The position numbers and the translations under genes are program-made. Positions 33,132 through 62,020 of a stretch of DNA of 64,000 nucleotides are shown one piece after another. The DNA is from Stratiolaelaps scimitus (Eukaryota; Arthropoda; Arachnida; Mesostigmata; Laelapidae), in the NCBI GenBank assembly GCA_019614645.1, contig JABWDB010000019.1, positions 4,138,501 through 4,202,500 of the forward strand. The letters are read 5' to 3'. How positions within the stretch are numbered: the first letter of the stretch is position 1; every line of letters starts with the position of its first letter. Under the pieces are notes generated by a model. That model ran no database searches and had not been told where the DNA came from. It worked only from the letters and a program-made list of their open reading frames with translations.

Positions 33132-34665
33132 TCATGCGGTCGTCTTCTTTATCTTGCACCACTGGGGCTTAAGCCGGCACATTTCGTCGGCGATCGCGCC
33201 GCACAGATCTTTTAGCGCCACTGGGGCCTCTTGCTGGTCCACAAAATCCTCAAGGCCACTGTGATTTAGGGCGGAAACGATGTTGACCTTGAAGTGTCTC
33301 CGATCGAAACGAGTGGGAAGAGTCCTGAGGACGTTGAGTATCAGTTCGAGGAGCCGGTGTTCAGCTGAGTCGGGCCGAATCGTACCTCCTAGCGTGAGCT
33401 TCCGAAGGGCTATCTCGACCAAGTTGGTGTTAACAATGTGACTGCAGATGATCACACCTCCCTTTGCAGCGATATCACGCAATCTTGTCAAAATCGTCAG
33501 GACTGAGTCGGGATCATCTGCGATGATCAACTGTGAACCAAATCATCAGCAAATCAAACGAGACAAGTACGGCTACATCTGGGCTGTTGCCTATTAAGTT
33601 CGGGCACTATCGACTAAGTGTTGTATTAGATCATCGTACGTTAATATATATATATATATATATGTTCCTGATTTCTGGTCATCGTCCATCAATAAACAGG
33701 ACAAGAATATTTTCAATACGGATTGCCCTTTACTGGCAAATATAAGCCAACTTCCTCGTCTTAGTATTATGATTATTCTTTTCCCTCCATTACATTGAGT
33801 TGCAGTAGATGTAACTAGCACATATGATAGGAGAGTCCTAGTCAGTCATTACCTGCAACGCTTCGAAGAAGTCTCGTCCTCGATGAGCAGTAGGTACCAT
33901 CACTTGCTTATGATCGACGAGAGTGCTTAGCAGATTGAACCAGAGCTTCCACATGTCTGGTTGGCCTCGAAGTCGGCTCATCCCGGCCCGTTGCCGCAGA
34001 TCGAAGACGGTCAGTATGCATTCATCATACATCTCCAGCAAATCGTCGATTAGGCAGAAGCCACTGAGGCGTTGCTCGTCAAATGCGCTACTAATCGAAC
34101 TTCGAACGATCCTTACAAATCGTGAAAACATGCCCAACTCGGCGATCCTATGGTAGACGACATCGTCAGCCTTACTGACCAAATCGGTCAAGACGACGAG
34201 GGCCTTGTTGGTGGCCGCGCTGGCCACAGGACACGACGCGATGTTAGCTAGGGTAAGGTGTATTCCGTTGCTCAAGTTCACTATCTGACTTCGGGCGACA
34301 GCGTGCTCTGTGAGCGCTTGAAGGAAATCCAGCATTTCGGGAAGGCTCTCCGGACGCCGTTCAAGAACACTGTTGATCAGCACATAGTGGCTGGCTTCGA
34401 GGCCCTGCGGATACTCGCACGATTGAACAACAATTTGCCGCAATAATCGTATAAGCAGTTTTCTCTTCTTTGCCGAGCCGGTCTTCGCTGCGCAAATGAT
34501 GAACACGGGCGCGGCACCATACCTGGCTAGAACGCGAGCATCTAACGGCTTTGTCAGTTGCAAGTCAACCCAATTCAGCATATTGCGGTCGTGTTCGTTT
34601 AGCCCGGCAATACTTCGCAAACCATACCTGATTTTATAAATTTCCATTGGGCTTAGCTTATCCAT
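33132..34665 (-). CDS. Array unit A: divergent importin-alpha-like armadillo-repeat protein
   Basis: Two exons, 34665-33853 and 33530-33132, give 403 residues across a 322-base GT-AG phase-0 intron (donor GTAATG, acceptor CACAG). The N-terminus carries RVLARYG, also present in unit B. The middle is a chain of amphipathic helices with an ARM-like pattern (HYVLINSVLERRPE, NKALVVLTDL). Exon 1 ends at FFEALQ, the junction motif shared by the array. Exon 2 has HIVNTNLVEIAL, a helix ending VLRTLPTRFDRRHF, and RLKPQWC near the end. The helix pattern resembles the last importin-alpha repeats, but no IBB domain and no W/N ladder are visible, so NLS binding is doubtful. Importin-alpha-like is an inference; another alpha-solenoid family is possible. 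The gene structure itself is well supported by the paralogues. Confidence 0.82.
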
Positions 34666-35814
34666 AGTTGCCCACCTCGCTTTAGAACACTTGTAGCGAT
34701 CGAATGATTGGAAAGGTCTGCGCTTTTGAACTTACACAATGTACATATATTTAGATTATATAGAACCTTTTCAGGTTATGGCTGCACGAAGTCTCGATGT
34801 CGGACACAGCAAACGCAGAACCTAAATGCGCCTTCGGCGCATCAACATCTATTCTCTTCCTTAAAGAACCCAAATGAATGGCCGTTAAGTTGACGAAAAG
34901 GGTGTTATTTTCGTTCACAAAAGCGTCGACGCCACTTGCACACTGGTACGCAACAGCTGCATGCACGCTCTCTCACTCGCCTCTCTCTTCGTCCATCATC
35001 GACTACAAACTGCTCGCGGTTTCGAAGAGTTCCTGCCGGGTAGAACTAACAATAAAGTCACCCTTTTCCACGTTTCCACAGATAGAGGCTGCAGACTGAA
35101 TGATTAAAAAGTTGAACGCCTTTTGTCCGATCACCGGGTGGAAGGATAACACCCGCAGCTATCTCGCAGGCGCACGTCTCTCTTTAAACCTTCATTCCTG
35201 GCTGCCTTCACCGCCTCGACCTCCTCGCACTGAAGGTGCGTGGACTTCGGGGGCAGGTTGAATGCCGTACGTGCCCTTCGCTGCCATCTTGAATGGAGAG
35301 GATCCCGTGACTGGATTATTTTTGAGAGTCGCCTATCATATGGGTGATGCAAGGGATTGCGTGGTACCTATACGTGCCTTCTTGTTGCTGGCATGTTTAA
35401 ACAAACATACACATATATGCAGCTAGAGTTGAAGGAAGCGTTCGTATATAAAAGAAGAAAAAGAAAACATAACTTCATTTATGTTTTGATATTTTTGTGT
35501 GAGACGTGAAGGACCTTTTCATTTATTTCAAAGGACGTGATCTGTTGTCGTTGTCCAGTGACATTGTGTTCAGTATAGCCCATGTTGGGGTCATGATTTG
35601 CAGAAGCAAAACTCAATAGTAGAGGACATCTCGCAGGATCAGTTGGCTTCAGATTAGGAGCAATACGTAATAATAAACAGGGACATGTGATTTTGAAAGT
35701 TATCGACGTTTATGGATCATTTCATTTCAAACTCTACAGGGCCATGTGTTGAATTAATCAACTTGCAAATGAGAGGAAAAGCGAGAGATGTAACTAAACG
35801 CAGCTAAGAGATGG

Positions 35815-36030
35815 TTAGGTGCATTTTGTCATCTTGCGAGTATTACGCGTAGATAAATCAGTTTCTTTATTTAAAGTTGTTTTTTTTCCCACAATTTCGG
35901 TCGATGTCATCCTGAATCGACAATTCAAGATGATATCGACCGAAAATGTTAAAAAAAAGCAATCTAAACTAAAGAAATACATAGACTTATCTTCGCCTGT
36001 ACTTCGCCAAAACGAGATAAATGAACTCAA
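35815..36030. repeat. Long imperfect inverted repeat
   Basis: The best-paired arms run from 35852 to about 35917 and from about 35926 to 35991. Weaker pairing extends outward to about 35815 and 36030. The centre lies near 35922. Because of the symmetry, both strands carry open frames with nearly the same translation, including an FSVDIILN-like run on the - strand and ISVDVILN on the + strand. It could be a MITE, a head-to-head duplication or a hairpin transcript template. Confidence 0.75.
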
Positions 36031-37167
36031 TGATATCCGAGCTTCGTTGACTTCCACCTCTGGCTTCTCTCTCGACTCATCTGCAAGTGCACAGATGCTA
36101 GATTCTTATATAGGGGTTCTCCCCTTAGAAAGGGGATCCTTATAAAATATCCTCCACTTTTAATGGGTTCTCATCATACATGCAGTTTAGCAGCCCTCGA
36201 AGTTAGCACGGAACGCTTTGCTGCAAGCTGGTCAGCTGGAAAGCTGTCACACCTCCGTCTCCCGTCCTGAGTTGGTTCAAGGCGACCTACGCGAGGCAGA
36301 GGCCGCCATTGTTTTGTTGCCTTGTATGCCACTAGGTGTCAGACATTGCCGTTAGATATGAACTCCATATCGTCGTCGAGCGATAACTGACGGATGAGGC
36401 AAAGTGGATTTCGGGAGCACATCTGTATACATTCATTTACATTTGTGCAATCTGTCTAGGAAAATTGAAATAACAAATGAAAATATAGTAACTTTTGACG
36501 AACCACGATCTGTGTGCGTTTTATTTCTGCATACTTCACCCAGAATTGCTAATGGGCTCTCTCTCCCCAGTTGAATAATAAACAAAATCCATATCAAAGT
36601 GGTTAACAAATGGTGAGTGTCTAATTGATGTGTGTTCTCATCGAGACACCAACCGTAGCATCATTATATTGCAACATAATTAGAATCGTTTGGTGCTCTT
36701 GGTCAAATATATCTGCCTAGTTTTTATTGTTGGACTTAAAAACGTGTTATCATGAACGAATGCACTCAAATGAATGGACAATTCTTCTCAGCAATATCAG
36801 GTTGGATAACACTCGACAGATTAACTAATAACAATTGACTTTATACCCCTTTGGTGCATATTGAGCTAAATATAAATCGGCTTCAATCAACTCGGCAGTG
36901 CGTTGAATGTATGTTTCCTCGTTCCCTCAAAATGATTACCACCGGACATCCGATTCGTTGATACGATGTTATCATGCTAAGTTCCACAGATGATGAAAAT
37001 ACTAACGTTCAATGCATCTGTGGCTCTTCCTCTTTATTGTTTTTATCTTAAATTACAAAGCTATGCGGAAAATGATAATTGCCACAGGCTGGTAGGTATA
37101 TCGAACGTCTGTCAATATACATGTATGTGTGTATAAGGTGAAAAATGGTCGGTTGTCGGTATGTACG

Positions 37168-37188
37168 TATATACGTATATATATGTAC

Positions 37189-37226
<38 letters not shown>
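37168..37226. repeat. (TA)n microsatellite with TACG interruptions
   Basis: About 59 bases of TA repeat with GTACGTATA interruptions at its left end. Open frames rich in I-Y repeats on both strands come from this tract. Confidence 0.85.
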
Positions 37227-37228
<2 letters not shown>

Positions 37229-37392
37229 TATACAAGAAGTATCGAGTAGATAGGATAAGAGAAACTGACCCGTGCTTGTGTTGTTTCTCTCACTCTGATC
37301 CAGATCGTTATACTGACAATCTGGAAACTTGTTTGCCGACTCGTAAAGAATCAATATATACATGGAGAGGTTCAGCCATGAAGCTAATCTGT

Positions 37393-38078
37393 TTACTGAG
37401 AGGCTTCTGGCGACCTCGAACACCAGCCGGGTCGGAGCCGGTTGATCTGCTGCGCAAACTCCTTGTACAGGTGCTTCATCCCAGCAGGTGGGCGCTGTGT
37501 TAAAAGACCGCCAAGATTGCTGTTGGAAATATCCTCGATGAAGTTGTTCTCGTAGCGGTCGATGTCGAGATGGTCAGGCATGGTACGTAGGATCCCGATG
37601 ACAAGCCGGACAACGCGCTGTTCCATTGAATCAGGCTCGTGCACCGCAACGATTCGGTAGCGTCGGAGAATCGAGTTCATCGCGCCGGCTCTCACAAGCC
37701 AACAGCAAATACCCTGACTGTTGGCTGTCTCGACCCAAACGGTGAGCCTTTTGACGATAAGCGTTCCAAACGCCTCGATCGCGTACGGCAGGATCAGCTA
37801 ATGAGTAGAGATAGTGAAATGATCAGTCGAATTAGTCGGGCAAACTGTTCCAGTATTTCAATCGATCGATTTGACCTCGCGAGAAATTAACCTCAGGTAA
37901 ACAGCGGTAGCAGCGAATGCTAAACAACATAACGAATACGAATTATTTGGCAGGTGATTGCATGAATGCCGACCACGAACATTTATCGAGTGTTTATGCC
38001 CTCATAGAAATTATATACGGGATGTTAATTATGCCAAGGTATGTCACGTTTCGCACATCTAAATCACTAGATGCAATA

Positions 38079-38111
<33 letters not shown>

Positions 38112-39347
38112 AATTCAATTCTACGTAGATGCGTTCTTTATTGACGGAAGTGTCAATCTCGCAACGCTTAACTCGCTCGCGTCGAATCAATAGTACGGCA
38201 GGGTTAGTCCCAATGGTACAACGTATCCAACGGGCGGCTATGTCTCAGTTTGAGAAACACGTTCTGATAATCGATCATTCCTGCGATGCTGAATAGCATC
38301 TGCATATAGTATTTGCTAGAAATTATCACAAGTGATTGCATTCGATTAGCTATCGGACAAAAATCCTTGCTGGGGTTGAGTGACCGCATCTCAGGTTAGG
38401 AACCGAGAGTCTCCCAAGTGCATTATTGGTGAATTAGTCATATGAAAAATAATATTGAATCATACAGTTCAATTATATCTGCGTGAATATTCTCCCGTCA
38501 TTGTCTTCGGACACCCGAGTGTGCTGTTTACCTCCAGCGCTTCGAAGAGATCAGGCCCTTGTTGATGTTGCGCGCGAGCGAACACCTGATCCTCATCAAT
38601 CAGCAGGGTGAACAGGGCAGCCCAGTTGAAGCAGACATCGAGCGGCTGAGGAAGCTGGGTGAATCCCAACGTTTTCATCAATTTCGCCAGACGTGGAATG
38701 TCACCGAGCGACTTGTCTTCTTCGCCAAAGACGGCCTTGGCAAGCCAACGCTTAGCGGCCTGCACGAATCTTGAGCACATGTCCAACTCGATCAACGCGT
38801 TGTAGCTAAAGTCGTCGTGGGCGACCCGCGACCGATAGAAGGCTCTGCTGAGTGCGCCGAGCGCGGCATTGACAATGTCCTTTTCTACTGTTGGATGTAC
38901 GACCAGGTCGGCCAATAGGCAGTGAAGGCCCGCCCGTATCACCTCTTGCCGAGCCACATCGAAGTTGACGAGTTCGCCAGTGAGCCGGACAACGTATAGC
39001 ACACAGTCCGGCACGACGGTCATTACCACTCGCAGTTCGGCGTAATGGTAGCGTTGCAGTTCGCCTCGATAGGCGCTCATTTCGGCGAAAATTTCCGTCA
39101 GCAGTCGCAGCACGAGCTTGAGAGATGGTATCGAAGGAAATTGCAGGAGGTGGGTGGCGAGTATAGACACGATACCAGATCTCGCTAGAACGCGCCCGTT
39201 TAGAGGATAGTTCACATAGTGTTCGAGCTGCTGAAACACATAGCGATCGTGGTCGCTCAGTTTGTCGAGTCGTCTCAACGCGTTCCTGATGTCCAAATAG
39301 TCCTTCTCTCGGAGAGGAGCGATCGTCATTACGGCGGTGTTGGGCAT
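37393..39347 (-). CDS. Array unit B: divergent importin-alpha-like armadillo-repeat protein
   Basis: Two exons, 39347-38532 and 37797-37393, give 406 residues with a 734-base phase-0 intron (donor GTAAAC, acceptor CATTAG). The ATG at 39347 is first in frame; a second at residue 7 (MTIAPLREKDY) aligns better with unit A. Shared blocks are RVLARSG, HYAELRVVMTVVPDC, then VIRAG with LLADLVVHP and an ALGAL helix. That last order is the best match to importin-alpha repeats (VI-x-AG, L-x-x-LL-x-H, ALRAV). Exon 1 ends at LFEALE. Exon 2 reads LILPYAIEAF and RRYRIVAV and ends near RLRPGWC. The W and N residues that bind NLS peptides in importin-alpha are not evident. Function unknown. Confidence 0.82.
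38081..38110. repeat. (TTA)n microsatellite in unit B intron
   Basis: Ten TTA-type units in the intron of array unit B. Confidence 0.85.
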
Positions 39348-40104
39348 CGCGTTTTCGTTGTGCGATCTTTTCTCGAGGCTATGGCGTATCGAAGAACAAC
39401 AGCATTCAAAAGGACGTCACAACCGGGGTTGCCGACGGGGCTGGCCAAACGAACCTGAGGAGAACAGACTTCATGTATCGCCGATGCAGCAGCAACAACA
39501 TCGGAGCAGCGTCTACCCAAAATGCAGCGAACTCGCCGTTGAACAGAGGAAATCGCGCGGGAGCGATATGCATGCGACCAGCCGGTTGGTGTCATTGAGA
39601 GACACACGCACACGATACGCCACGTCAATGACACGTGCGGGCCGTGTTCTGCAATGGTTGCTGCCGTACAAAACATGCACGGCAGATTGAAATGGAGAAA
39701 GGATTAGAGGTGAATCATAGGATTGTAGCAGTGCGGTAGTGTGGGATGGAGTCTCGGCAATTGACTCTCGACAATATCTAATCGATTCATATCACTTACG
39801 ATATTCAAGAGGTAATTAGATGGAACTTCGTCAAATCGTGTCGCAGTGAAAAACAGTCGGGCGCCTGATCAAAAACAGTTCATTAGAAAATTGTACATAA
39901 ATCATGTACAAAATCGTATATAATGATATAATATTAGATACTTGTATACGCAGCACTTGTAAGTAGCTATGTACACATTGTGTACTTACTGTCTCTTGAG
40001 TATCTATCTAACGTATGAGTATTGAATGGCTCGTGACAATAAAGGATATGAATGTTCAAATCGATGAATTCCGCTGTTGGTAGCCAACACAATACCTATT
40101 TTAG
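39348..40104. other. 5' flank of array unit B
   Basis: No gene is recognised. The proximal part is GC-richer, with several CAG/CAA units near 39487-39500, and probably contains the unit B promoter. The distal part is AT-rich. Confidence 0.45.
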
Positions 40105-40860
40105 CGATTTGCATACGCGACAACGTACAAGCAACGCGTGGACGCACTTGTCAGTGAGATGAGGCAGCTTGGAGCAGAGGCTACATTTCATACTTTTGGC
40201 GAATGGTGAGTTACGGTCATTGCCGTCTCTTAACCAAAATGAAACACCCTCTTGCCAGAGCATGACACCTGTATATATATATATATATATGTATATTTGG
40301 GACGAGACATGTCAACTATGTCCGTTGTATTCGTGAGGGTATTCACACAGATGATCGACTCAACCGTTTAGGGGATATGAGATTCGCTCCGGCGTGGTAT
40401 TCAATCTATCTGATATAAAAGTTGGAGCCATATTCATAGCGTGCTTTTGTATGGCAAACACAGGTGTTGTTTTGGGTGAGGGGTATGATATAAATATTTT
40501 TTCTGTTATTTGAATCGAAATATTGTCTACAGCAACCGGCTCTACAAACCCGATTAAATGGATGGAGACATTCTACAGGGATCAAGACGCGTTGCGTCTG
40601 GCCATGGTGAAGCGTCTATTGGCAGCCCCCGAAGATCCAGGAATGAGATCGAAGTTCTTAAGGTTCCAGCTATCCACACAGATATCCACCATCGTTCGAT
40701 TTTTTTTCTGCAAATTCAATTTCGTCTGTGGCCAAAAACAACACGACGCTTACCGCCGCCGTATTTTACGAGGCCTGTGTGCTAACGACTTTATCTCGCG
40801 TGGGATTTCTTTGTTTAGCAAAATCGTGGAACAGCAACGCTGGAGAAAATTTGGATTTTG
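40105..40860 (+). pseudogene. Probable remnant of an ABCB-type transporter membrane domain
   Basis: Three candidate exons join in phase: 40105-40205 (ends phase 2), 40372-40463 (ends phase 1) and 40533 onward, with the frame open to the stop at 40859-40861 or spliced near 40659. The reading includes FAYATTYKQRVDALVSEMR, then EWWGYEI, LSDIKVGAIF and, after the last join, NPIKWMETFYRDQDAL. The order and spacing resemble the second intracellular loop and TM5-TM6 of P-glycoprotein-like ABCB proteins. There, an E-x-x-RY-x-x-x-L helix is followed by W-Y-G and G-D-x-x-x-V-F-F, and then by a helix leading to the nucleotide-binding domain. I find no Walker A or LSGGQ motif downstream and no upstream exons. 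It is probably a truncated copy; unrelated coding sequence is possible. Confidence 0.4.
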
Positions 40861-42645: not shown

Positions 42646-43912
42646 TTATGGATATCGAGCGAGGTTGCTGGCAAGTACGCTGTAGAAATCCGCCAAATCA
42701 CTTTCACCATTCATGTAGCACGCTTGAATATTTTGAGCTTTGAGCAAATTGAGAAAGAGGTTTCTGTACATCTGGTCACCCTGGTACTGGTCAAGGAATC
42801 TCAAAATACTGTTGACCAGTCTGAGACTCTGCTCTTGGATATCCCTCCTTTCTTGGCTACTCGGTTGTTCTCTTTCCAGAGGCAACCTGAGTTGGAACCG
42901 CTCGACGATCCTGTCGAGTAACTCGGCCTCGAGACACCAAGCCAGGATTCCTGGCGTTTCAACTTCGACCCAACGTCGTATAGCGGTGAGAATAGCGGGG
43001 ACATCACGCTCTCTGGCGAAGCGGAACAGATTCTAAAATTAACAACGCACAATTAGGTTGTTTAACGAGCATCCCGTCTACGATTACGAATTAACTATCG
43101 GGTTTTTGCTTATTGACATATTTGCCGACGAGGCCTACGACCTAACAATGCTGGTCCACAGACAATCCACAAGTCTAGCCTAAAAAACACCAATTGTTTT
43201 TCCGGGCTGACCCACAGCCAACATTTAACCTTTGGCATTCATATAAACATACCCAAGTAAATTTGTCGGGCTTATTCACAGACTTAAACACTTAACTCCA
43301 CGAAACAGCGTTAGGCAATTGCTTCATAGACGAACCCTTAGGCAGCTCCAACGGTCAGCTGTAAAGAGCTGTATATTTGAGCGGGATCATTGTGAAGAGC
43401 TAATTCTCGCACACGCATGTACCACTGGGTCGTTTCGTAACCCCTGCCTGCCTGCCTCCCTCCCCCACCAATTACTCGTGTAGCTTATATATTTCTGAAT
43501 TAACCTGACACATAAGAGAGCTTAAGCATTGAAAAATTGCAGCTCCTTAAATAAACCAATAAAGATTTACCATTTACCATTTACCATTCAATCTTGCAGA
43601 TTTTTGAGATAAACTATGTAGATACAATATACCCGAAAAAAAATTAGCTCTCTAAGAACTCGTGGCAACGTGCAGCAATGGCGGAAGATGTTCGCTATTT
43701 ATACCCTGATTTTTTCGCCGAACGCCGAACGTTTTTTAAATCCAACACAAATCCAGCGGAGAAAGGCTACACAATATGATATAGAAGTACGTATGATACC
43801 ATAGGTTGGACCGCTGTTGGACCTATAACCACAGATACACAGGGCACTGCTACATGTATGCAGGCATACACATATATATATATATAGATGTATATGTGTA
43901 TGCCTGCATACA

Positions 43913-43969
<57 letters not shown>

Positions 43970-44762: not shown

Positions 44763-44867
44763 CAACTCTGCAGCAGTTGATCTGGCCGCCTGGAAACACT
44801 GCGCAAAGCGTCCGACGGCACAGCTTTCGTCGAGGACAGCGATCCACAAAAACACATACAAACTACC

Positions 44868-44905
44868 CACCCACACACACACGCACACACACTGACACAC
44901 GCGAT
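44868..44905. repeat. (CA)n microsatellite upstream of unit C
   Basis: A CA-rich run on the + strand. It is the source of the VCVCVCV translation upstream of the chosen unit C start. Confidence 0.8.
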
Positions 44906-46560
44906 GCAACCCGATAGACGCTGATGATGCTTGAGCACACCAACACAATGGCACAAATGGCGTCTTGCGTAAACTCGCGTACGTAAACACGTAAACTCGC
45001 GTGTACTGGTCTGTGCGAAACGTACTGTGCGTGTCGCAATCTGTCACAATCTCCTTGCCTCTGTTAAACACGTCTGACAGAGGAAATACGGCGAACATAT
45101 GCTGACCTAGCTGTGTCCATGCTGAGTCGATCGCAATACGGACGACGAACGTGTTGAACATCTCCAAGCTTCACCCTGCACCCGCTTGTACGATGGAGGG
45201 TTCGCACGAACATGCAACAGCAACAGCAGGAAACGGCGTGGTCGGATCAGCTCGCCCTTCGTTGGAAGCCTTCGTTCGTTGACGGTATCATGTGCGTACA
45301 ACAATGGCCACACGATCTTTCAGTTAGCGCTGTGACAGCACGATATGGTTTTTTGCCAGTGGCAAAGGAAAGCCGCATTCGTATCGAGTGTGCGCCAATC
45401 GCTCTTGCATTACGACAATTTGCGCAAGATCAGCTTCGATGACATAATAACAATAATATCATTTGAGTTGTTCGCCGTTCATCGCATGCGTACAAAGTCA
45501 CTATGGGATCGGTCTCAGTTGCTCTTGGATTTTGCTTTTAAATCTCCTATTGCCCGCCTTGTCAAAATCAAATTGCGCCGAAATGTAGTGTCGCAGCCGT
45601 TTGGGAATTACGTTATTCGTGTGACATTCAAACATTGAAAGCAACTCTCTGACGCTGCTTCGGTGCTTGCTGATTATCTGTTGTTTGAGGCTACTCGAGT
45701 CCCGAGCGTTGCCAGCGTTGCCGGAAAATGGGATATTTTTCTTTGGTTTGCCTTCAAAAATGGCACTCGTCGAAGAGTTTTGATGAGCTAGAATACAAGT
45801 TAACGTGTCAACTCATAGTCTACGTTCGTCGCATCACATGCCACTTGGTATCTATCTATGCTGAACATCTAGTCGAACATACGTTCCGCTGTATCTTCAT
45901 ATAGAAGATACAGCGCATATCTGGCAGTGAGCAATATTCACAATTCCGTTCAATTATGATTGTGCGTCTTTTAACGAAACAATCATGAGAGAGGCTGTTG
46001 AGTGTCAGTCCGAGGGCGTCATGGTCACTTCCGAGGGAGGCGATGGCATTGCCTCTCTGCCTCACAGCGAGGAGAAGGCGCTGAAGACAGAAGGATTCTG
46101 CACACTTGTCCCCGGTGACGCGGATCAGCCGGCAGTAGACTCCTCTGAGGAAATTAGCAATGAGGGGGTCGTGGTCGCCTAGGATTTCACCTATCGTTCA
46201 CATGGTCTGGCTGCTAGATCGTTGAGATTTCCATCTTCTAGTAAAAAAAATGTATCACTTTATCGATAATAATCCTAGAGTGATGATCGCAAAGCGTCAG
46301 AACGACCTTTACAGCTAATCGTCCATTTGTATGTTTTAATTATATCTGTGTCGGGCACATTGAAAGCTGCTGCATACTCACAGAGGCCTGCAGCAACTGC
46401 CGTACGTTGATCTACTTGACCCCGACGGAGTCTTAATGGAGGCTAGAGTTTCAGAGCAGGTTAAGGACTACCTTGTCCTTCGTATCCATTTCCCCCTATG
46501 TCATGTACACATTTAGTCCTGCCGGTCGTCCATCGTACGCGTCTACTGTAAAAGGTGTTA

Positions 46561-46634
46561 CCTTTTTTTTTAAGAGCTTAAAGGTAAATCCTGCATGGAC
46601 ACCCGGCCTCACAACTAAAGTATTTGCCTGGTAG
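46561..46634 (+). repeat. Repeat family B head
   Basis: T8 followed by a TTAAAGGTAAATC block and a GCATGGACACCCGGCCTCAC block, ending near TTTGCCTGGTAG. It is nearly identical to 49312-49380 and partly repeated at 48330-48355 and 52440-52478. Confidence 0.6.
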
Positions 46635-46760
46635 TGTCCGATTTTGTCGAGATCGAAGGTGCTTAAGATGCAGTGTTACTAGTGTTGAAACAAATGCAGA
46701 TATGCTGTAGAACGGTTCAGAGCACACGGGGCTAGGTGGTGAAGAATAAGTGTTCCAGTA

Positions 46761-47150
46761 TTACCAGTTGGCTCGTCTGTCTACTGTCGCTAAAATATAC
46801 TTCAAGCGGTCAACTCCGACATAGCTACTACGCAGTGGTCCCTTACCGACGTTTTGTGTCCGTCCATGCGGCGCGGTCTGTCCTCCACTGCCACCCGTCT
46901 GATCATCGTCAATGTCGAGTTCCTCAACGCCTTCAACGTCGCCCGTCGTGACGTCTCCGAGAAATGGCCGAGCACGTGCCTGCCTTGTTCTCGCTAGTTC
47001 ATTTGCTGGATGGTTGAGTCGGTCGTTCTCCCAGCGGCTGCACATATACAATTCAATAGTGCGGGAGTATCGAAATATCTCCATAAGTACAGATCGGGCC
47101 TTCATGATGATGTCCCGCTCGTAATGCTGGTCGAGGCCCATCGCGATCGT
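46761..47150 (-). pseudogene. Array unit D: lone second-exon-like remnant
   Basis: A 130-codon frame follows a plausible acceptor (CTTTATAG). Its length matches the second exons of the array (129-135 codons including stop, except 158 in unit G). The first part (ERDIIMKARSVLMEIFRY to SRWENDRL) aligns by spacing with unit C exon 2 (ERDVPAILTAIRRWVEV to LLDRI). After about residue 50 it becomes Gly/Asp-rich and unlike the paralogues, and the WC tail is absent. I find no matching first exon between 47151 and 52700. It is probably a fragment left by duplication or deletion; chance similarity is possible. Confidence 0.4.
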
Positions 47151-48329
47151 CTATAAAGCGTGTTGTGTTCCGTTGGCTATCCTTCGACTCCGTTAGTCAC
47201 CAACGAGGGCGAGATGATCATTAAGCACAGGGTCTCAAATGCTTATTCCTCATGATAGCCATTCGGAAGCATGCGCACCAGGGCGTAGTGAGGTCGAGCA
47301 TTGGGAGAATCCAATCGAAACTGAATATCTGGAAAAAAACGACAATCTCTCTCTCTCAAGGCGCTGTGGAGTAACCCCGATTAGGAACCTGTTCTATACA
47401 GTCGATAAGTCGCATCGTGTCCCCAGCACTGACGTAATGAAGTTGCCTGGACATCGTTCTGCGTAAAATGGCCCATTTAGCCCAGCACTTTTATGTGAAA
47501 GCTGCTCAAAGCGGAGTTGTCTTCTAATAGGATAGCGCGCACGTCTCACACAGTCGATTCTTGGAAAGGCACCGCTTAAGAACACGAAGTTGCATGATCA
47601 GCATAGTCAATGCGAGACATCGCTTACAAACGAAATCCGTCGTGTACCCGTCGTGGATTGGAAAGATATTCACACTCTGCTAGCTGTCTACCGCCTGTAG
47701 TCGTGACCCACGTTGGGCACCCACTGTTATAATCTGTAGAGGGGGGACTCCCATAGGCTTTAAAACAATTGAAGCACGAAGAGAGGACACAACGCTAGCC
47801 AAGCAGAACGAGATACACGGACTCACCTCATGTAGGGAGTTCTCAGAGGTGGTTAGAGCACGCTGTGCTAACTACAGAATACGGGTAGCACTGCCTATCA
47901 GGTTGGCCCCGGTGGTACTTTGAGGGATCATTACAGTACAGACACGCAAAGACAATATATCACCTTCCCGAATCTCCCTTGTATTAACACAGGCAGCCGG
48001 AATCTACCAAGTTTCATATAGAGAAACTTACTGTCCCTTCAATTACAAATGCTAGAAGTCACTACCAAATAAAATACGCAATTTTTGCGTATTCGGCTTC
48101 TTTGCGAGGTCGGCGCTTTTTTGCGGAGGCGTATCCGCGATAGTGAAAGCTCTACCCCAACCTAACACATGCCATCTGATATTTCCTCCTTCGCTCAACG
48201 CGCAGTGTCTCCCGGTGTAGTGTGCCCTTTCAGCAGAAATGTTGAACCCGAATATGTCGATCACTGATCTACCCGTCGGAACGTAGACGGTGCATCCCGA
48301 ACCTTGGCATTAGTACCTCTATCCGCCTT

Positions 48330-48590
48330 TGTTTTTTTTTAAGAGGTTAAAGGTCCGCCTTTGCTAACGTCGATATTCTTACCTTAATTGAGATATGGGA
48401 TGCAGAGCCCTTCGACCTGGAAAGCTTCAACGCTGCCCATTCTCTCGCCGTCGGCGCGGTATTTGGACGACGAAGTTTATGGCTGTAGAAAGCTGGAAGC
48501 CACCTGTTCGGCCCCGCGACGCGACGTATAAGAGAACTTAAGCATTGTAAAAATGCAGTTCCTTTAATAAACCAATAAAGCCTTTAACCT
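48330..48590 (+). repeat. Repeat family B, possible near-full-length SINE (about 260 bases)
   Basis: The head-type sequence (T9, AAGAGGTTAAAGG) at 48330-48355 and the tail-type sequence (AGAGAACTTAAGCATTG to AATAAACCAATAAAG) at 48527-48590 are in the same orientation. They are about 260 bases apart, a normal SINE length. The middle is not shared with the other copies here. Confidence 0.45.

Positions 48591-49140: not shown

Positions 49141-49146
<6 letters not shown>

Positions 49147-49171
<25 letters not shown>
49147..49171. repeat. (TA)n microsatellite
   Basis: About 25 bases of alternating TA. Confidence 0.8.
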
Positions 49172-49311
49172 TCGCTTCGCGTTCACGAGGGATTTAATTT
49201 ACCAAGAAATAAATAGCGACGATGGAGCAGTTATCGCGCAGTGAATCTCTGCTTACCCCATCTTGGTGTCCGAAGGTAAACTATTGTTATTCAATGAGAA
49301 TTATTTTCTTT

Positions 49312-49380
49312 TCTTTAAGAGGTTAAAGGTAAATCTTGCATGGACACCAGGCCTCACAACTAAGGTATTTGCCTGGTAGC
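49312..49380 (+). repeat. Repeat family B head
   Basis: A second close copy of the 46561-46634 sequence. Only a few differences are visible over about 65 bases, so divergence is low. Confidence 0.6.
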
Positions 49381-52300
49381 GTTAGACTCTTACTGACTAA
49401 ACCCAGAACTGATTTTGACCTGGGACACTGACAGGGACTGTCAAAAGTATTACTTCAGTTAGTGCCTTGCAGGGACCGGCAGTTGATTTCAACCATGTCC
49501 TATCCCTCAGTTCCTCCTCTGGGGCGATCCCCCCCCCCATTCAATGGGAACTATTATGAAAAGGTTCAACAAGGGAGAGACATAGACCTAATGAACACTA
49601 AAAAATTGTCATACAAGCTTTATCGATTACGCAACACGAGCTGGGCATTTCTGTGCTAAGTCCCGGATTTAGATCTAATTATGATCTCCTTGCGTGCGCG
49701 CATTGCGAAATCGTCGTATAATACCCGCCAGTGTAAACATTACACGAATCGTTTGAGTTAGAACGACGTGTTCGTGCTATTTAATCATGTGCGGACGTTT
49801 TGCAACGACTGAAACTCTTCATGAACCTGGAACGCTATAATAGATCGAAAATAGGTCCATGGTGTAAAAATATTAACACGGTAAGATCTATACCGAAGAA
49901 CGCTACCATGTGTTTCAAAGGTAGACACGCACACACGTGTCAAGCACATCCAACAGCTGGAGAGCAAGCCTTACGTGCTTCTGGGGCCGGCCATACTTTC
50001 ACCCTGACTGTCACAAATGTATTTCACGTTATTACCGTTACTGAGCGTTGCCCTGTAGATAGTGTGCATGAATCGGCATCAATCGATGGATGCCAGCCAC
50101 AGACGCAATCGCTGGCTTATACTCGTGCGCCGTACGCTGTTTCTTTGAACTCTTCGACGTAAGAGGACAGTGTCGCCACAGACAAACCTGTTGTCATTCT
50201 ATTGCAGATAGACAACCGTCGTCTCACGGCTGGGTGCTAGCAGCCTGTAGCAATCCGCCGGTAGAGCCGTGGTCCTTGAGGATAGATAAAGCATTTTTGG
50301 TGCGGATTGATGTGAACGTAACGATACCATTTAGCCATAATAGTCGTCATAATAATAGCTTATGCTCGCGCAACCACTGCGAGCGTTACCAAAGGGGTGC
50401 TACGCTTTGTGTCGTATTCCCGGGATCGTGCGCCGACCGTGTGAGGAGGCATCAGGGTTCCCCATGAGAGAGATGTTCGCATGTGCGATTCATGTCACCT
50501 CACGCCACCGTAATCACGTAACCTAATTACTTTCAGCGACATACGTCGTACCATCAAAATGAAACTGTGCTCGGGACGGGACATTCCTGGGGCAAAACAT
50601 GTTTGTTTGATAAACATTATAATCATTCGATAGAGGTTAATCATCGTCCGGTGCGGTATCTGCAGCGAAATGGCAGTGGCACACTGCCACAGCCCGATAG
50701 TACTGTCATTTGTGTTTTCGAATATACAAAATTCGCTATTCGTTTCATAAGGACGGCGACACTAAACGCTGCTTTTCGCAGTAGTCATTCAATTTTAGCA
50801 AACGGATGACGTGTAAGATTCCTAATACTTAACATGTCATCATTGCTCGCTGGATCCAAATCACACGGCGAGCTGGACTAATACGAAGCTCAGAATACAA
50901 GCCCTTATTATACCCTCAGATGTAACGACCGCTTCTTGGAATACCCAGCCAATATTTCACCAATAATGTATTTATCTGCTTTTTCTACCGCTGTCATTAT
51001 TGATAACATTTACAGCGACGGCGAATACGAAGAGGAGAAAAAGAACGAAGAAATCGAGATCTGCAGAGAAGTGCTCCAACGCATGCGCCAAACTTAACTG
51101 CAACGTTCTCAGCGGTATGAGGTGGGCGCCAACCTTCGCCATGCAACTTTCCCGAATCCTCCAACGTAGGACCAACCTAGTGACGTATACAATGCTAAAA
51201 ATATGAGGAGCAATGTAAAGATATCCTTGTACTCGTAGATCTCACCGGAGATCTCGTTGCGCTTGGCCGGGCTTGGCACGATCTATATTTGCACAGCTGT
51301 GCTTTCCTCTACGACAGCGTCTGAAAAATCGTCGAGTCATTCATGGGGTCTAATCACCACTGTATGATAGGAGTATATCAGGGCGGAGAGGACGGAAATT
51401 CTTCAAGGAAAATCTTGTCGACAAAGAATTTTGTGGGGTATTCGCATGCTGTATTCAATGGTATATATGTGCGCTAGTTTAGTGAGACAACAAAATCCAT
51501 ATCGTGTGAAAATCTTATAATCAATACCGCTGAGATCCGGCGATATAATTGTCATTCAACAATAACTATTGAATATCTTGTATAGACAACGGATACATCG
51601 ATACGGGTAACTAGGGCGTCCCGTGCCGACCTCAAACAACAATAACATCTATGCTAGCCTATGCGAGCTCATATGCAACCTGATATCGAGTCATAAGGAG
51701 AAGGTATCCAATAAAAACAGCCAATTAAAACCAGATACGAATTTTCAAAATTTTGAACGATTTCTTCACCGTAGCAACTCGGCAAGTATTATATGGATAG
51801 ATAAATATATCTGACTATGTATGGTTAGCTATACGTAGATACGCAGGTGACAGGTCAAATAGCGCTACGCAAATATATTCAAGTCAGGAAGCGAGATAGG
51901 GGCCCAGTCGGCATAAACATGCACAGGTACAATAACGCTCCTGAGAGCGTCATTAGGGTCGCGCGCGCTGGCATACTCTGTCATTGTTCTAAACCTGTGA
52001 ATAAATACGTTGAACGTATAGATGAATAAATAGTCCCGCCATGTTGTTATTAATTTATTCATTAAGATGCATTGTTCTATTCCTGTATACACATTACATT
52101 TTTCGCTCATCTCTCGGTCAAGTTAAAATCTTCGGTCAGTATCGAGATTTGCTCACAACGATCTCCATCCGCGGTTCCACACTACGAAGTTCTATAACGG
52201 CGACGCCGACAGCAAGAATCACTCCCTTAACAAGGGTTCGTACAGTGGAATCACAGCTCAGCATAATACAACATATTGTCGTTTGCATTCGATTGATAAT

Positions 52301-52748
52301 GGACTTTTTTTTTATCCTCCTCAACTAGCGTAAAAACCGCCACGCTGATGACATCAGCTAGTTAGGCGGCGAACAAATATATAGAGGAGTGTGTTGTTCG
52401 TGTGACACAGGAATGGGCTACAATAAAATTGGAAATCATATAAAAGGACACTCACACCCGGCCATACAACTAAAACACTAGAGAAGTTCTTTGACGAAGA
52501 ACAGGAGAAAGATTCGGGTAACTGGAACGAACCTTCCCTAGTACAAAATAATTAGATAACTTCTCGAACAAGTGTACCCTAAATGGGTCGAAACAATAAA
52601 TCCATCAGGTGGTGCCCTATATGTCCTTAGTTAATTATAAATAATTATTGTAAAACCTTACAGATCTAGGGTCTAGCGCAACGCGCTGAGGTCTCGGTGG
52701 ATGAGTAATGGTTGATAAATCCTACATCACTCAATGCCTTGGCCGCAT

Positions 52749-54211: not shown

Positions 54212-54636
54212 CTATTCACTACAGTACAACGTAGCTATGAAGGGCGATCGAGAAATCGGACGGACGTCGGGTGAAGTGGAGCAAATGTGCGCTGTCACAC
54301 CGGCCTTCAGCACAACTTAGTGTTTCTGGCCACAAAATGACATCGGTTACCGAGAGCCGTTCCTTGCTGGTGAGATCCGTCCAGCGAACTGAGGCAGCGA
54401 ATGGTCGACAGGTGTTAAACTTACGTTTGCCTTGAACAGATCGCACGTAGCTCTACCGGATAACATCACGAACACATTCGGCGGCAGGATCGTCCGCACG
54501 AAAGGGTGTGTGCAGCAGCCGTGTGAACGTGTCAGCATGGATGAGCCGGTGAATCGGCCGTCGTCATTGTCCTGCGTGCGATTCTCGAGAAGCTGAACGT
54601 TGGTGATTCGAAGCTTATGGGTGTCATCGCGTCATT

Positions 54637-54686
<50 letters not shown>

Positions 54687-56313
54687 TAATGTACGATGTC
54701 TGTTGCATCATTGCTTATGCGGCTATATCTAGCCACTTGGCTGACAACAGGGTGTTGTATTGTTGATTGTATTAAATGTTGTCGAACCGTAAGGCCAAGC
54801 AATTGCCCTTAATAATAATTTTCGAAGCAAAAAAAAGCGAAAATCATGAAAAGTGATCGCATTTCGATCCGGAGAGGTCCCGTTTTGGCAGTTAGCCAAT
54901 GAACGTTAGGGTGGGTGGCGGATTGTATAGAGTACAGTGGTTGACAGTGCTCGTCTCAGGCGCACCAGGTTCAGTCGCCTGATGGGGCAAACTGGTTGGG
55001 TGTTGCGAATCTTTATCATAACCACTACGTGTTCTTGAGGCATGCTTCAGTAAACCATAAGGCTGACCAAGGTCAGGAACACGGCAACAATGTGTGCGTT
55101 ACGATAAGCAACAGTGTTCTTAACTGTTCTCGATCTTTGAGCCAGTTTTGCCAGGTTGTCTTACTTTCCTTTCTATTATATATATATATATATATATTTC
55201 GATACCTTTTATTTGAGGTTTATTTTCGGAACTGCAGTTTTACAATGCTTAAGTTCTCGCAAAAAAAATTTGATAAAAGGTGTATATATAACAAGGTCAG
55301 GATAATCTGACAAAATATAATTGTAAAAGCCATGCACACCACAATATATAGATAATGACAGCAATTAGAAAATGAGCACGATATATATTTCCAAGAAAGC
55401 AAAACACATCCAGACTTTATTCACTGCAAAATTGTCTCCTCATGAGAATTACTAGTTAAAAGTTGTGTGCTTTACAAATAACGGTCGAGTTTTATAGATC
55501 GATTAGAATCGAAATCCTTAATTAAATTAAAATAGCCCAAAACGCTTAGTCAAATGATCGCTTTTTGCGAGTCACCGATCGGAGCTAGAGATTTGGTTGT
55601 TTTGTGGATCATACACAATACATACGAGGTTCCTTCTGAACGACTCTGCACGCTAAGCAATATTAACACTATCAAACAAATGTATGAGTTATAAGTTCGA
55701 TAACAGCGTCACCCTGACTGGCTGAACATTGCACAATTTTTGATATAATAGTTTCTGTGGTCTCCTCGTTTGTGGCAAAACGATTTCGCGTTCGGCTTGT
55801 TTGACCTGCTTGTGTGTCGATCGGGCAATGTCTTCTAAGATGCTTCTTGGGCGGACATTGACGAAGTTGAACAAGCGACCAAGTAATGGGGCATCAGCAG
55901 CGTAATCGAAGAAACTGAGGAGTTCAGACGTGGTCTCGGTGCTATTCTGGCTTGGCGTGGTGGGAGTCGTTCAGTGGGGCGCTCGCAGATATATGGCGAA
56001 TACTCGAATCCCCTTGAGGCAATACAATGATATTTTTCGCCAGCAGGTAAATATCGCCAACCCGAAGCCGCGCGACAAGACATTTGTTCAAGACGACGAC
56101 GACGGCGATCTCTTGCTGCACAGGCAGGGTCCACCTGTTTCATGATCCGACGTCTGACGTAACCTGTACCGGACACAATTTACAAAACCCAAATCATTTG
56201 CAGGTAAAATAGCCTCCTCTGTTTCTGTCCTGCTGAATTGGTAACCCGTAACATTCAGGCGTTCGGCGCCTCCTCAGTCGCGTTCTATCCGCGTGAGACG
56301 GCGGTCCCGTATT
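54212..56313. other. Spacer between array units E and F
   Basis: No gene recognised. It holds (TA)n tracts at 54640-54688 and 55176-55197. An open frame at 55930-56145 (+) with a hydrophobic start and an acidic DDDDGD segment lacks an ATG start and known homology, so it is not called. Confidence 0.45.
54640..54688. repeat. (TA)n microsatellite
   Basis: About 49 bases of TA with one GTA interruption, between units E and F. Confidence 0.85.
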
Positions 56314-57991
56314 TTAGCACCATTCGGACTGCAACCTAGAAATTTCAGCAGCGATATCTCGTTGGATGCCCCGTAATTCTTGTGGCTGAGGCAGATCCGA
56401 GGGTTGATGGAACTTGTGGCTTATCAAGTCTTTGACAACGTTTCTTCGGTAGAGGGTCGCGTCGTATCGGTTGGGCAGTGACTGCAGAACGTAAAGGATC
56501 AACTCTAGAATATGTCGTCCGACTTGCGCGTAGAGGACACCGGTACAGCGGTTCAACAGCGTTACAATGGGGTACCGTTGGAGAATTCTCTTGATCAGAT
56601 TCGCGTTGACGATCCGAGCGCCGACGTCTTGATTCAGTCCACTCGCCAAATAGTGCAGCCTTAATATAATGACCTCCACGGAAGACTCGTCACCATACAC
56701 GACGATTAACTGAAATGAAACCACACAGGCAAGCTGATGAAAATATCTCCCTCAAACATCGAGGTCAGATACTTCCATAATGAAGTGGGAGTTCTTTAGG
56801 GGTATCGCTGCCCCGGCGTTCTCTGGGGTCAGCTGCTAAGGTAAGTTTGCAGGCTTGATAACCACTTCACGGAATATATACATAGATATATATATATTAA
56901 CAACAGATCTACTCGCCACGCATTTGTAACCTGATCAGGTGCGGATCCCGAATCAAATCCGCTGGAAGGCGCAGCTCTGTCCTTTCGCTTACCTCTGTAC
57001 TGCCATTCATTCTGATTATTGCCGCCCAGCAGATACAGAGCTAATCTTAGTCTCATTTGAAGGCACGCCTGCGAAGGCCTGTACTAAAGCAGAAAGGCTA
57101 GTAGTTAAGATTTGAGCAGTCACTATTTCACAAGTGCTGATATAGGAAACCTCACGGAAACAGTAGATCGTTTACCTGCATGGCTTCGTAGAAGTCATCT
57201 TTTTGCTTTGTGGCATATGTAAAATTGTTGTCACCTTGAACAAACGTGGTTACTAAGCGAGTCCAGGATTTTAGCAAACGAGTATGATGGCGTAACAAGC
57301 GTTCAGGAGGCCACAAAGCAGCCTCCATCAGCCCTGAAGGTTGGATCGTTCTAATCAGATTGCTATCGGGACCGCCGTAGTTAACGTTCCACTGAAGAAA
57401 TTCCCTGACCAGCCATTTACGGACCACGTTCACAAACGCCGAGAACAAATCCAGCTTGCCGATTTTAGAGTACACACGCTTGTCCATAGCGTGAAGAGAG
57501 GTGCACACGATAGAGGTTAGGATGTGGAGAGCTTCGTCAGCTGCTTCGAGTGGGATGCCGCGAGAGGCAATCCTCGCCAAGGTATGGTGGATTCCAGCAT
57601 GAATAGCGTCTTTTTGGGCAGTTTCGTATAGCGTGAGTTGAGCTACAAATCGCACCGCCTCGATGACGCAGTCAGGGAACTTGATCATTATTTCATTGAC
57701 CTTCCTGTAGTAGCTCACTGGCAAGTAGTCAGGGGTCTCGATCGCGGCCATTTGACTCAACAGAATCAACACTCCACGTTGTCGCTGAGAACACGTACAG
57801 AGAATAGTCGGCTCCTGTTTGCAACATATCCTGCTAACACAATCGATCAGATCAGGTATAATCTCAGAGGCGGATAGCAGCCGTAGATTCAGCGGGTATT
57901 TCAATAGAGCTAACTCTGGGGCCGTCTCGGGAAAATCATCTCCGAGAAGAGTTTTGACCACGGCAAGATCTTCACGGAAAATAAGACGCAT
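56314..57991 (-). CDS. Array unit F: divergent importin-alpha-like armadillo-repeat protein
   Basis: Two exons, 57991-57176 and 56709-56314, give 403 residues with a 466-base phase-0 intron (donor GTAAAC, acceptor TTTCAG). The start ATG (MRLIFREDLAVV) aligns with the starts of units A, B and E. Blocks include PLNLRLLSASEI (compare PLNGRVLARSG in B), YYRKVNEIMIKFPDC, AIHAGIHHTLARI and ADEALHILTSIV. The exon junction motif is FYEAMQ. Exon 2 has RIVNANLIKRIL, LILYVLQSLPNRYD and ends exactly at RLQSEWC. Apart from the extra Cys-rich insert ICCKQEPTILCTC in exon 1, it follows the array pattern. Function unknown; ARM-type solenoid inferred. Confidence 0.82.
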
Positions 57992-60460
57992 TGTTCACTT
58001 GTCACTTTGATCGTTAAAATCAAGTTCGACTGAGTACCCTGTGCAATCGGCACAGGACGACGGCAGAACGTTGACACCTGACTGCGTCTTTCCTACTAGG
58101 CACCACTATAACGGCACTGCCAGAATTAAGCAGGTCCGCGCCAACCACTCTGATAATAACCTCAACAGCACAGGTCAAGTGAATGGAGCCTATCGCTACC
58201 GTTTGGCCGCTCCCTGGTCCGTCAACAGCGTCGGCTGCACATCGCTGTCGAGCGACCAGCTGATTGCGGTGGATGTTTGTCATATTGATATGTGCGCCCT
58301 CACGTGGCATTTCCATATCTACCCGTGTGAACCTGTGCGGCAGTATGCACATGCTGACGTGGCAGTATGAACTGCCACCGTCGTAGGAGAGGAATCGTAG
58401 CAAGGACGAAGAAAAGACCATCTTCAAACCACGCAGAGGATGAAAGGAATAAGGGAAATGTTTTGGAATCGCCAGGTTGCAGCTCGTGTCGATCCCGGTG
58501 GCCTTTGGCAGTGGGGGGGGAGGGAGGTGCACTCACGTGTGCCTGCCTTGCAACCGGAGGTGCTCACTCAGGGGTTCAATTCCCACCGTTGCACATTTGC
58601 ATTTAAAAAGGGGTTGTCCATCTCCAAAAGCAGTTGTACCGTAGATTAAGTTCAAACGTTTGAGGCTAAGAGTCAGCCTTAGGACATTTAGGTTGCGCCT
58701 CACACTGTAGTTAATCTGAGGACACGTACAGGAATGCAGTTCGCGAACGAATACCAGATGCGCATGAAGAGAGACCGGAAATCAATAATAACAAGAAGAA
58801 TATTAATAAAGGTTCACACGACAATAAAATTTTGCAAAATCCATACCAAATTTCCCATTACGGCTACGAATGAGTGAACCCGACTGAGAAAATCCAATAT
58901 ATGAGAATGGACTTGAAAACCAAAACGTGGACTGCCCACCAGGTGTCTACGGCTATATATTCATACATATTTACTCAGAATTTCTCTTCAGTGATATATA
59001 TTTATTTTATCTACCCACAGTTTCCATATATCGTGTAAAGCTGACCGTTACGTATACATATGTACTCACGAGCACCCGCCATGAATTCTAAGTCAGATAT
59101 GAATCAAATGAATGAATGCTGAACCCTACATTTGACGTATTCAATCCCAACCTATTATCTTAAGATAAGGCTGCCGACATAGTTACATGATTGAGTAACG
59201 ATTTAAGATTATTAGGAAATTTAAAAGATGCAACGTCCGCAATGAAAACGCGCACATGAAAAAATCTAGCATCGGATGTTAACTCGAGTGAAGCACCCAT
59301 ATTTCCACAAACGCTTCTTAGGCTCCGTTTACAAATGGATAGCACTAACGATTCTGCTCATGAAATCGCGTTCAAATACACGCTCAACTTCGATTAAGAA
59401 GTTGTTGCAAAAGTGCGATTTTTTTTCGCCAGCACAGCGTGACTTTTCTGCCGGCGACGTCAATACCTACCGCGTTACCGTAAGAGTGTGACACGCTATT
59501 TGTCGTTATCAGTTTTGTAAAATAGATCGTTGACAAACTTTATTCAACTACTAAATAGCCGACGACTTCGATCTGTTGTGGCTCCCACAACTTTTCGCAT
59601 GTTTCGAGTTGGAGGATCTGTCGATAAACGACAGATAACTTCAAAACATACATGACTAAAATAGTCATCACCATATATATATATGTATGTCTTTGCGTAA
59701 ATGTCTCTTGTTTGAAACAAGGACACGTCAATAAAAGCAAATATACACTTCGTCTTAAAGTAATAAGCTGAGTTTTAGGCTGAAACACAGAGGTCGAGGG
59801 ATCATCTGTGTCCGCATCGAATGCTTGCTTCCTTCTGGTTGGATGTAGTACGTCATATAATCATTATACTTCGCTTCGTAGCCTGTGACGAAATCTGTGT
59901 CTTCGTATCTAGCGTCGTAATCATCCTACATTCTAGAACAGGCCCATCTCACAACGTGGGAATCGTTCGCGACGCATATGGCGGCATTTTTCATAGTGGG
60001 ATTTTTATGCACACAACGCGTGCAGACCTATTTGTTTTTGTCCAATATGCGCGTTACTCTACCCTTACACACAGGCTTGTTAGGACACCTACGCGCTTCG
60101 GCATTCTACGAAGCCTTGATATAAAGTGTCACAGCTGAATGGTGTTACATGCTGATGCAGTTCCTAATAGGTTCAATGAGGCTATTGAACAGTTGGCTAT
60201 GCGAAGCACGCACTGCACGGCATGGTCGAACCACTCAACGTATGGGACTGTAATAATTACAAAATTAATTTTTAAAAGGAATAGTCTCTCGCTTGAGATT
60301 TTCATCGTGCGACCGAGAGACAGCCGGCCAGCCCATGGCGTTCGTACAAGGATGACGGCTGGTGGCACGGTACGAAGGGGCCGCACACATTAGCCGCGCG
60401 TACTGTCGACACAGCAAATGTAAAGCGGGATACCCCTCGCGGCGTCTGGCGAGAAGGTCG
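57992..60460. other. Spacer between array units F and G
   Basis: No gene recognised. It holds a SINE family A copy at about 58500-58695 (+). The longest open frame (58020-58532, -) has no homology I recognise and overlaps the repeat. Confidence 0.45.
58500..58695 (+). repeat. tRNA-derived SINE copy (family A)
   Basis: An A-box-like TGGCAGTGGGGG is followed by a B-box-like GGTTCAATTCCC and the family signature TTGCACATTTGCATTTAAA. The body resembles 25681-25870 (AAGCAGTTGTACCG...GATTAAGTTCAAA). A copy on the opposite strand at 3655-3805 has GGTTCGATTCCC. Confidence 0.6.
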
Positions 60461-62020
60461 CTAATGTGTGCGGCACCATAGCTCGGAGGTATGTAGGTAT
60501 GTCCTGTAGTCGACTTCGGGGCACCAGGTAGGCGCCAACCGCTGCATTTGCTGTGAGATCCTTCGGATATGGTGGTCCACCTTCCGTGTCAGCCACCCAA
60601 TTGACTCACGGTAGATGATGATTGAGCCAATGTGGTGATTTAGAAGGATCTCGACGACGTTGACTATGTAACGATCATCACTAGGGCGAGATTCCGACAA
60701 ATTTTCGAGGAGCGACGCAACGAATCCGAGCACCTTCTCCTCAAGCACGCAGCTGTCCCGTTCGCTCAGGGAACGCACAATCCTGCTTACGGGGCATTGC
60801 TCGAGAATTGCTTCGATCAGGTTAGCGTTGACGATGTGCACGGCTACAGACGAGCAGCGTGGGCCTGCCAGGAGGTCTTCTAATGTCGGCAGTATCGAAA
60901 TCAACCAATGACTAGGGCAGGAAGAGATGCAGAACTAAAATGGGACCAAATTCAATATAATTGTTATTTACGTATATTGCCGCCCGAAATGCTCCGTAAG
61001 ATTCGTGTATCGTGTCTATTACAGGGTTATAGCATTAATTAAACGATTATACCGTGCATCGTGTCGCAAGCGGCACTGACCCTTTAGCCTGGGCATTGTC
61101 TGGTTGGAACATCTTGGTTTCGGTTCATTGCATGTTGAGGAATAGAGGTGAAATCGCAAAAAGTTCGGCGTGTGCCGATAAGCACAATAGTTGCGTAGTT
61201 ACAATGACCTGATAAATACTGGCATATAGCAGTTATCTGCGAAACTCGTCACTTGGTCGCGTAGATTTGAAAAGAGATATTTTAAGTCGAACGCAAATAC
61301 CTGCAGGGACTCGTAGAGGTCAGGTTCGTCGTGAAGCGGGCCCCAGCCACGTAGTGTGCCTGTAAGCAAAGCTTCTATTAATTCCGACCATTTGCCTATA
61401 ACGTCGGTCCAGTCCTTGCAAATAATTCTCCAATTCTCCGAGCTGAACAGCTTCATCATCGACCACAGCGGGACTTGCTTTCGGCGGCCGCTGGTCAGTA
61501 AACATTCCCAAGTCAATTGCAGCACCCGTTGATCCATATTGTCAGGGGAATGACTGGTGCCAAATTCGGGCCGAGAAATTGCGTCGAGCAGATGCTTCTG
61601 GACTTTCTCGCGTGTCGTCCTAAGAAGGCTGGTGCATATGTTCAGCGTAGCGATTTCGACAAAACTCGTCCGGTCGCCAAACGTACAGCAGCTGTGAGCC
61701 ATATCGGTCAGCACACCTAAGGCACCGATGACGACCGACGGGAATCCGGTGAACACAATGCGATACAACGTTTCGTGAAGCCTACCGCGAATGATACAGT
61801 CCACACCTTGCGGGCATGCTGCGAGCTGCCGCAAGCTGTCAAACGCTGTGCCGACAAGTGCGGGTCGCTCTCTCAAAATGAACTCGATATCGCGAGCATA
61901 CTGCGGCAAGCGATCGGCTGCGTCGAGACGCTCCTTGACGTCCATAAAGCTGGCTGCCATTTTTCGCTTTCTCGAGGGCTCCTCTTCACTAGAAAGGTTC
62001 ACCAAGCCCAATGCAGCCAA
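60461..62020 (-). CDS. Array unit G: importin-alpha-like paralogue with shortened N-terminus and extended C-terminus
   Basis: Two exons, 62020-61301 and 60934-60461, give 397 residues with a 366-base phase-0 intron (donor GTATTT, acceptor TTTTAG). Exon 1 is 240 codons instead of about 272. It lacks the RVLARxG-type first block and instead starts with an acidic/basic segment containing SRKRKMAASF. It then joins the shared pattern at QYARDIEFILRERP, VVIGALGVLTDMAH and the LYESLQ junction. Exon 2 has HIVNANLIEAIL, as in units A and F, and RLAPTWC. A tail of about 22 residues follows that the others lack. The short basic cluster could be an NLS; I do not regard it as an IBB domain. A lost or separate upstream exon is possible. 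Confidence 0.78.

Follow-up and report, generated by a model that had tools for sequence, protein, structure and literature searches.

Importin-alpha has been described as having ten armadillo (ARM) repeats with an array of Trp and Asn residues, and nuclear localization signal (NLS) ligands are held by this concave array together with acidic residues (PMC4474859). In Drosophila, nuclear-transport genes (Ran, Ntf-2 and importins) have been duplicated recurrently, mostly as retrogenes with testis-enriched expression, whereas duplications of this kind were reported to be few in other Diptera and absent from other insects (PMC8645118). Here we describe a 64,000-nucleotide stretch of the genome of the mite Stratiolaelaps scimitus (contig JABWDB010000019.1, positions 4,138,501 to 4,202,500 of the forward strand; hereafter the window), which contains a tandem array of strongly diverged two-exon genes that are predicted to encode ARM-repeat solenoids. 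The original prediction for this DNA had compared the array with recurrently duplicated nuclear-transport genes of flies. The mite array is like the Drosophila duplicates in combining lineage-restricted duplication with strong divergence, but the latter are mostly RNA-mediated and derived from recognizable genes, whereas the mite copies are in tandem, have kept their intron and have no recognizable parent.

The array occupied positions 33132–61960 of the window on the minus strand and comprised five two-exon gene models (U1, U2, U3, U6 and U7) and one copy that consisted of exon 1 only (U5; Table 1). The introns of the five models were all in phase 0 at the same location, with a GT donor and an AG acceptor, and had lengths of 322, 734, 968, 466 and 366 bases, respectively. 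Exon 1 of each model ended in an (F/Y)EALQ-like motif at the GT donor, and the joined proteins were 377–406 residues long. Relative to the other copies, U7 lacked ~80 residues at its N-terminus. Exon 1 of U5 was recognizable, with an open frame that ended soon past the conserved Trp, and no exon 2 was found for this copy; the 52.3–53.5 kb region reached 19.7 bits in a frameshift-tolerant scan, a level matched by 27 of 132 control bins. Directly downstream of U5, a borderline exon-1 profile match of 28.5 bits was observed on the minus strand in the 53279 region (control maximum, 28.7 bits), and perhaps represents the decayed end of U5 exon 1.

Table 1. Features of the window, with positions numbered from its first letter.
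Feature	Positions	Strand	Evidence and remarks
U1, two-exon ARM-like gene, 403 aa	exon 1 34665-33853, exon 2 33530-33132	-	Open frames, GT-AG, phase 0; left-out profile E 4.5e-31 / 8.4e-19
U2, two-exon ARM-like gene, 406 aa	exon 1 39347-38532, exon 2 37797-37393	-	Left-out profile E 1.8e-34 / 6.5e-22; exons folded by AlphaFold2
U3, two-exon ARM-like gene, 382 aa, without C-terminal PxWC	exon 1 44762-44001, exon 2 43032-42646	-	Left-out profile E 3.7e-27 / 3.8e-7
Claimed seventh unit, at most a decayed relic	45856-47490	-	E 1.4; 25.8 bits; E 0.18 for the open frame at 47490-47359
U5, exon 1 only, C-terminally truncated (open frame of 221 aa), perhaps a pseudogene	54205-53543	-	E 6.5e-26; exon 2 not found downstream
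U6, two-exon ARM-like gene, 403 aa	exon 1 57991-57176, exon 2 56709-56314	-	Left-out profile E 3.8e-34 / 4.3e-16
U7, two-exon ARM-like gene, 377 aa, most divergent exon 1	exon 1 61960-61301, exon 2 60934-60461	-	Left-out profile E 2.3e-8 / 8.8e-13
SCAPER gene, several exons	7151-13612	+	SCAPER_N E 2.5e-22; Galendromus occidentalis protein matched by tblastn in pieces of 47-88% identity
Biopterin-dependent aromatic amino acid hydroxylase, C-terminal stretch, just upstream of the array	31207-31548	+	PF00351 E 1.1e-11
Open frame of 309 residues resembling retrotransposon gag	19292-18363	-	PF03732 E 0.0035, under the curated cut-off

The copies are of common descent, share one gene plan and have been under coding constraint. 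Leave-one-out profiles, searched against 1,736 open reading frame (ORF) fragments, regained exon 1 in six of six cases (E 1.8e-34 to 2.3e-8) and exon 2 in five of five (E 6.5e-22 to 3.8e-7), and no outside ORF scored better than E 0.18. Pairwise comparison by blastp joined U1 to U2 (E 9e-40) and U6 (5e-34), U2 to U3 (1.5e-16) and U6 to U7 (1.5e-12); the U1–U3 and U3–U7 pairs were below significance by blastp alone and connect via other copies. In a five-protein alignment, identity to U1 was 28, 19, 28 and 24% for the other four proteins, and any two copies had only 0–3 five-letter words in common. Together, the splice plan and the alignment upheld the original description of same-strand units that have a two-exon plan and a chain of aligned blocks in common but few identical residues.

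The GC content at third codon positions was 0.55–0.66 in the copies, compared with 0.62 in the SCAPER stretch of the window and 0.43 in intergenic DNA overall, so that the copies resembled a real gene in this respect. In addition, second codon positions were less diverged than third positions in all ten copy pairs. Fourfold sites differed at 0.52–0.78 between copies and were saturated; the ratio of nonsynonymous to synonymous divergence is therefore not measurable, and the age of the copies is inseparable from their speed of divergence. A tree of the copies joined U3 with U5 at 89/89 and had no starred branch; its end branches were 1.5–5 changes per site long, and one join was marked as long-branch by the program. 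No upstream motif was shared among the copies beyond chance.

The seventh unit that had been proposed (ORFs 47150-46761 and 46197-45856) scored E 1.4 at best and was not demonstrated; the count of seven was upheld only for the five two-exon copies and the exon-1-only U5. In the frameshift-tolerant scan, the 46.5–47.7 kb region reached 25.8 bits with a peak at 47058, a level attained by four of the 132 control bins. Weak matches clustered at 47.0–47.5 kb on the same strand as the array, the top ORF outside the units in the leave-one-out search also being located there, and because of this grouping a decayed relic copy near 47 kb is possible. The neighboring 47.7–53.0 kb region scored 33.1 bits and exceeded all 132 control bins, but excision of the stretch revealed that this score was carry-over from U5.

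To assess the fold, exon 1 and exon 2 of U2 were modelled separately. AlphaFold2 predicted an all-helical solenoid for exon 1 (predicted local distance difference test score, pLDDT, 82.1; predicted template modelling score, pTM, 0.84), from only six sequences, and also for exon 2 (pLDDT 85.5, pTM 0.83). There were 15 predicted helices of at least four residues in exon 1 (~270 residues) and seven in exon 2 (~130 residues), which suggests roughly seven ARM units in models made exon by exon. Exon 1 was predicted to form a right-handed solenoid of three-helix ARM units, and the prediction was weaker for exon 2. The top Foldseek matches of the exon-1 model were designed ARM proteins (E 8e-4), with three matches at E ≤0.001. 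The 50 VIA-align matches listed for the same model included 25 designed ARM proteins or fusions, 15 importin-alpha, eight beta-catenin, one Vac8 and one axoneme chain, titled only “C1 of central pair”, and at rank 50 the Z score was still 13.7. At the sequence level, the exon-1 family profile also reached designed ARM proteins (E 6.9e-9), which made up 22 of the 34 matches listed. The structure prediction proposed as a check of the original reading returned a helical solenoid with importin-alpha ranked first, yet beta-catenin, Vac8 and designed ARM proteins were all within 1 Z of it.

The Pfam ARM and HEAT profiles had no match at E ≤1 to the ten exons or the five joined proteins, and it took the family profile to match designed ARM proteins. 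As the Pfam profiles do not recognize the copies, their assignment to the ARM proteins rests on predicted structure; in a repeat family that has diverged so strongly, we do not take the lack of a profile match to overrule the modelled fold.

Based on these models, the fold appears importin-like, and the ARM part of the original importin-alpha-like reading was borne out by the predicted solenoid. Membership in importin-alpha is another matter. The copies might have arisen by duplication of importin-alpha and, after loss of both the importin-beta-binding (IBB) domain and the classical groove, might serve as specialized adaptors or as decoys in nuclear import, for instance in germ cells. We regard this as unlikely, given the structural tie with other ARM proteins and the residues at the sites that hold NLS ligands in importin-alpha. 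No W-x3-N occurred in any of the five joined proteins. At the repeat best aligned to importin-derived designs, the Trp site was filled by Trp in one of six copies (U5) and the Asn site by Asn in none of six; the family consensus had g and d, respectively, at these sites. No IBB-like basic N-terminal cluster was seen in the first 60 residues of the five models (K+R 6–9 versus D+E 6–10), although the models may miss an upstream exon. The statement of the original prediction that the IBB domain and the Trp/Asn ladder are missing agreed with these charge counts and with the motif scan. With both hallmarks absent from the models, there is no support for membership in importin-alpha, and the copies would not be expected to bind a classical NLS. 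The overall plans may also differ: importin-alpha has an IBB domain and ten ARM repeats, whereas the mite copies have ~400 residues and, by the exon-by-exon models, perhaps seven units. Designed ARM proteins, whose consensus is importin-derived, were both the top Foldseek matches and the only ARM proteins reached by the sequence profile, but they are artificial and have identical repeats with a Trp/Asn ladder, in contrast to the irregular, ladder-free repeats of the mite proteins.

A divergent branch of some other ARM-type family (beta-catenin-like, Vac8/ARMC-like or HspBP1-like), functioning in adhesion, in signalling or as a chaperone, could account for the structural matches to beta-catenin and Vac8. 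This too seems improbable, as the copies had a sequence match to none of these families, the beta-catenin and Vac8 ARM domains included. The repeat arrays of beta-catenin and Vac8 are also much longer. Candidates from outside the ARM proteins were rejected. Matches to nSTAND1 (E 0.0034–0.0092), HTS (0.0022–0.015), Arch_fla_DE (0.039–0.12), DUF7599 (0.068–0.078), Rsbr_N (0.099–0.14), RasGEF_N (0.11) and WHD (0.33) were below the Pfam curated cut-offs or were single-copy matches. TAL effector matches to U2 (23 of 23 matches, E 0.021 at best) and designed helical repeat matches to the profiles (E 1.8e-4 and 1.1e-4) were taken as repeat-protein noise or as shape-like.

Searches of 5.8 billion proteins scored 7,995 candidates for query A1, none of them at E 0.01, and 7,999 for U2, none at E 10. 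In the same database, the SCAPER positive control scored 7,985 candidates, of which 1,068 reached E 0.001, the human protein (34% identity) among them. These searches show that, as far as detectable similarity goes, the protein database holds no well-conserved orthologue; a strongly diverged one could escape, because the searches depend on five-letter words in common, of which even the copies have so few. Pattern searches of prokaryote and viral contigs yielded 28 and two matches, respectively, of which none was confirmed, as expected for an animal gene.

Together, the gene plan and the models argue for a tandem cluster of predicted ARM-repeat solenoids, which are probably non-secreted adaptors that grip partners via a copy-specific groove. 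An intron-bearing gene would have been duplicated in tandem at the DNA level, after which the copies would have diverged strongly and one of them would have become truncated. Exon 1 and exon 2 together would form one curved helical solenoid. By analogy with other ARM proteins, the concave face would be formed by the third helices, which would bind a partner or an extended peptide there. Each copy may hold a different, non-classical ligand, because the positions of the importin-alpha Trp and Asn residues carry varied and mostly other residues here. None of the copies had a strongly hydrophobic N-terminal stretch, which makes a cytosolic or nuclear location likely.

The truncated U5, the N-terminally short U7 and the possible relic at 47 kb would also be consistent with a decaying array, in which pseudogenes or unexpressed copies predominate and the divergence is drift. 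We consider decay very unlikely, because neutral divergence to such a distance would have broken the frames, and five copies, at 19–28% identity to U1, still have intact splice sites and open frames of 377–406 codons. The slower divergence of second than of third codon positions also speaks against it. We conclude that the tandem duplication is real and of an ordinary kind, that the predicted ARM family is unusual and strongly diverged, and that a role in nuclear transport or genetic conflict, as suggested originally, is not established.

The biological setting of these mites bears on the conflict proposal. According to PMC6902594, the Phytoseiidae include species with paternal genome elimination, and 37.26% of the genes of Neoseiulus cucumeris are lineage-specific; its main text mentions neither armadillo nor importin. 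A literature search on phytoseiid and other mites found nothing on an armadillo or importin family. There is a very slim chance that a clade-specific ARM family, not recognizable from its sequence, has expanded in tandem in mites whose sons eliminate the paternal genome, its members being copy-specific cargo or chromatin adaptors whose grooves are rewritten by parental-genome or drive conflict; the conflict part of this proposal rests on the setting. Fast-evolving adaptor genes could, in a setting of paternal genome elimination, bear on an open question. The array is of interest as a clade-restricted family, with the surprise reduced by the proportion of lineage-specific genes in N. cucumeris. 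Provided that the proteins are real, it would be an ARM-fold family missed by Pfam, with no relative from two protein searches and with neighbors ~75% different from one another, and a test case for the rewriting of a repeat-solenoid groove after duplication.

Outside the array, the closest relative of the SCAPER gene was that of the predatory phytoseiid mite Galendromus occidentalis (89% identity over residues 440–790, where conservation was highest, and 68% over 779 residues), followed by those of ticks (~43–50%). The hydroxylase stretch and the gag-like frame are given in Table 1. Two fold-back sequences, at 35761-36088 and 20-270, matched their own reverse complement at ~71% over 341 and 256 columns, respectively, and are possibly non-autonomous mobile elements. 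Three short dispersed repeat families, ~79–94% alike, were also observed (46564-46637 and 49309-49382; 43512-43564, 48528-48580 and 55208-55258; 3723-3762, 25746-25805 and 58572-58634), two of which sit within the array and its largest gap.
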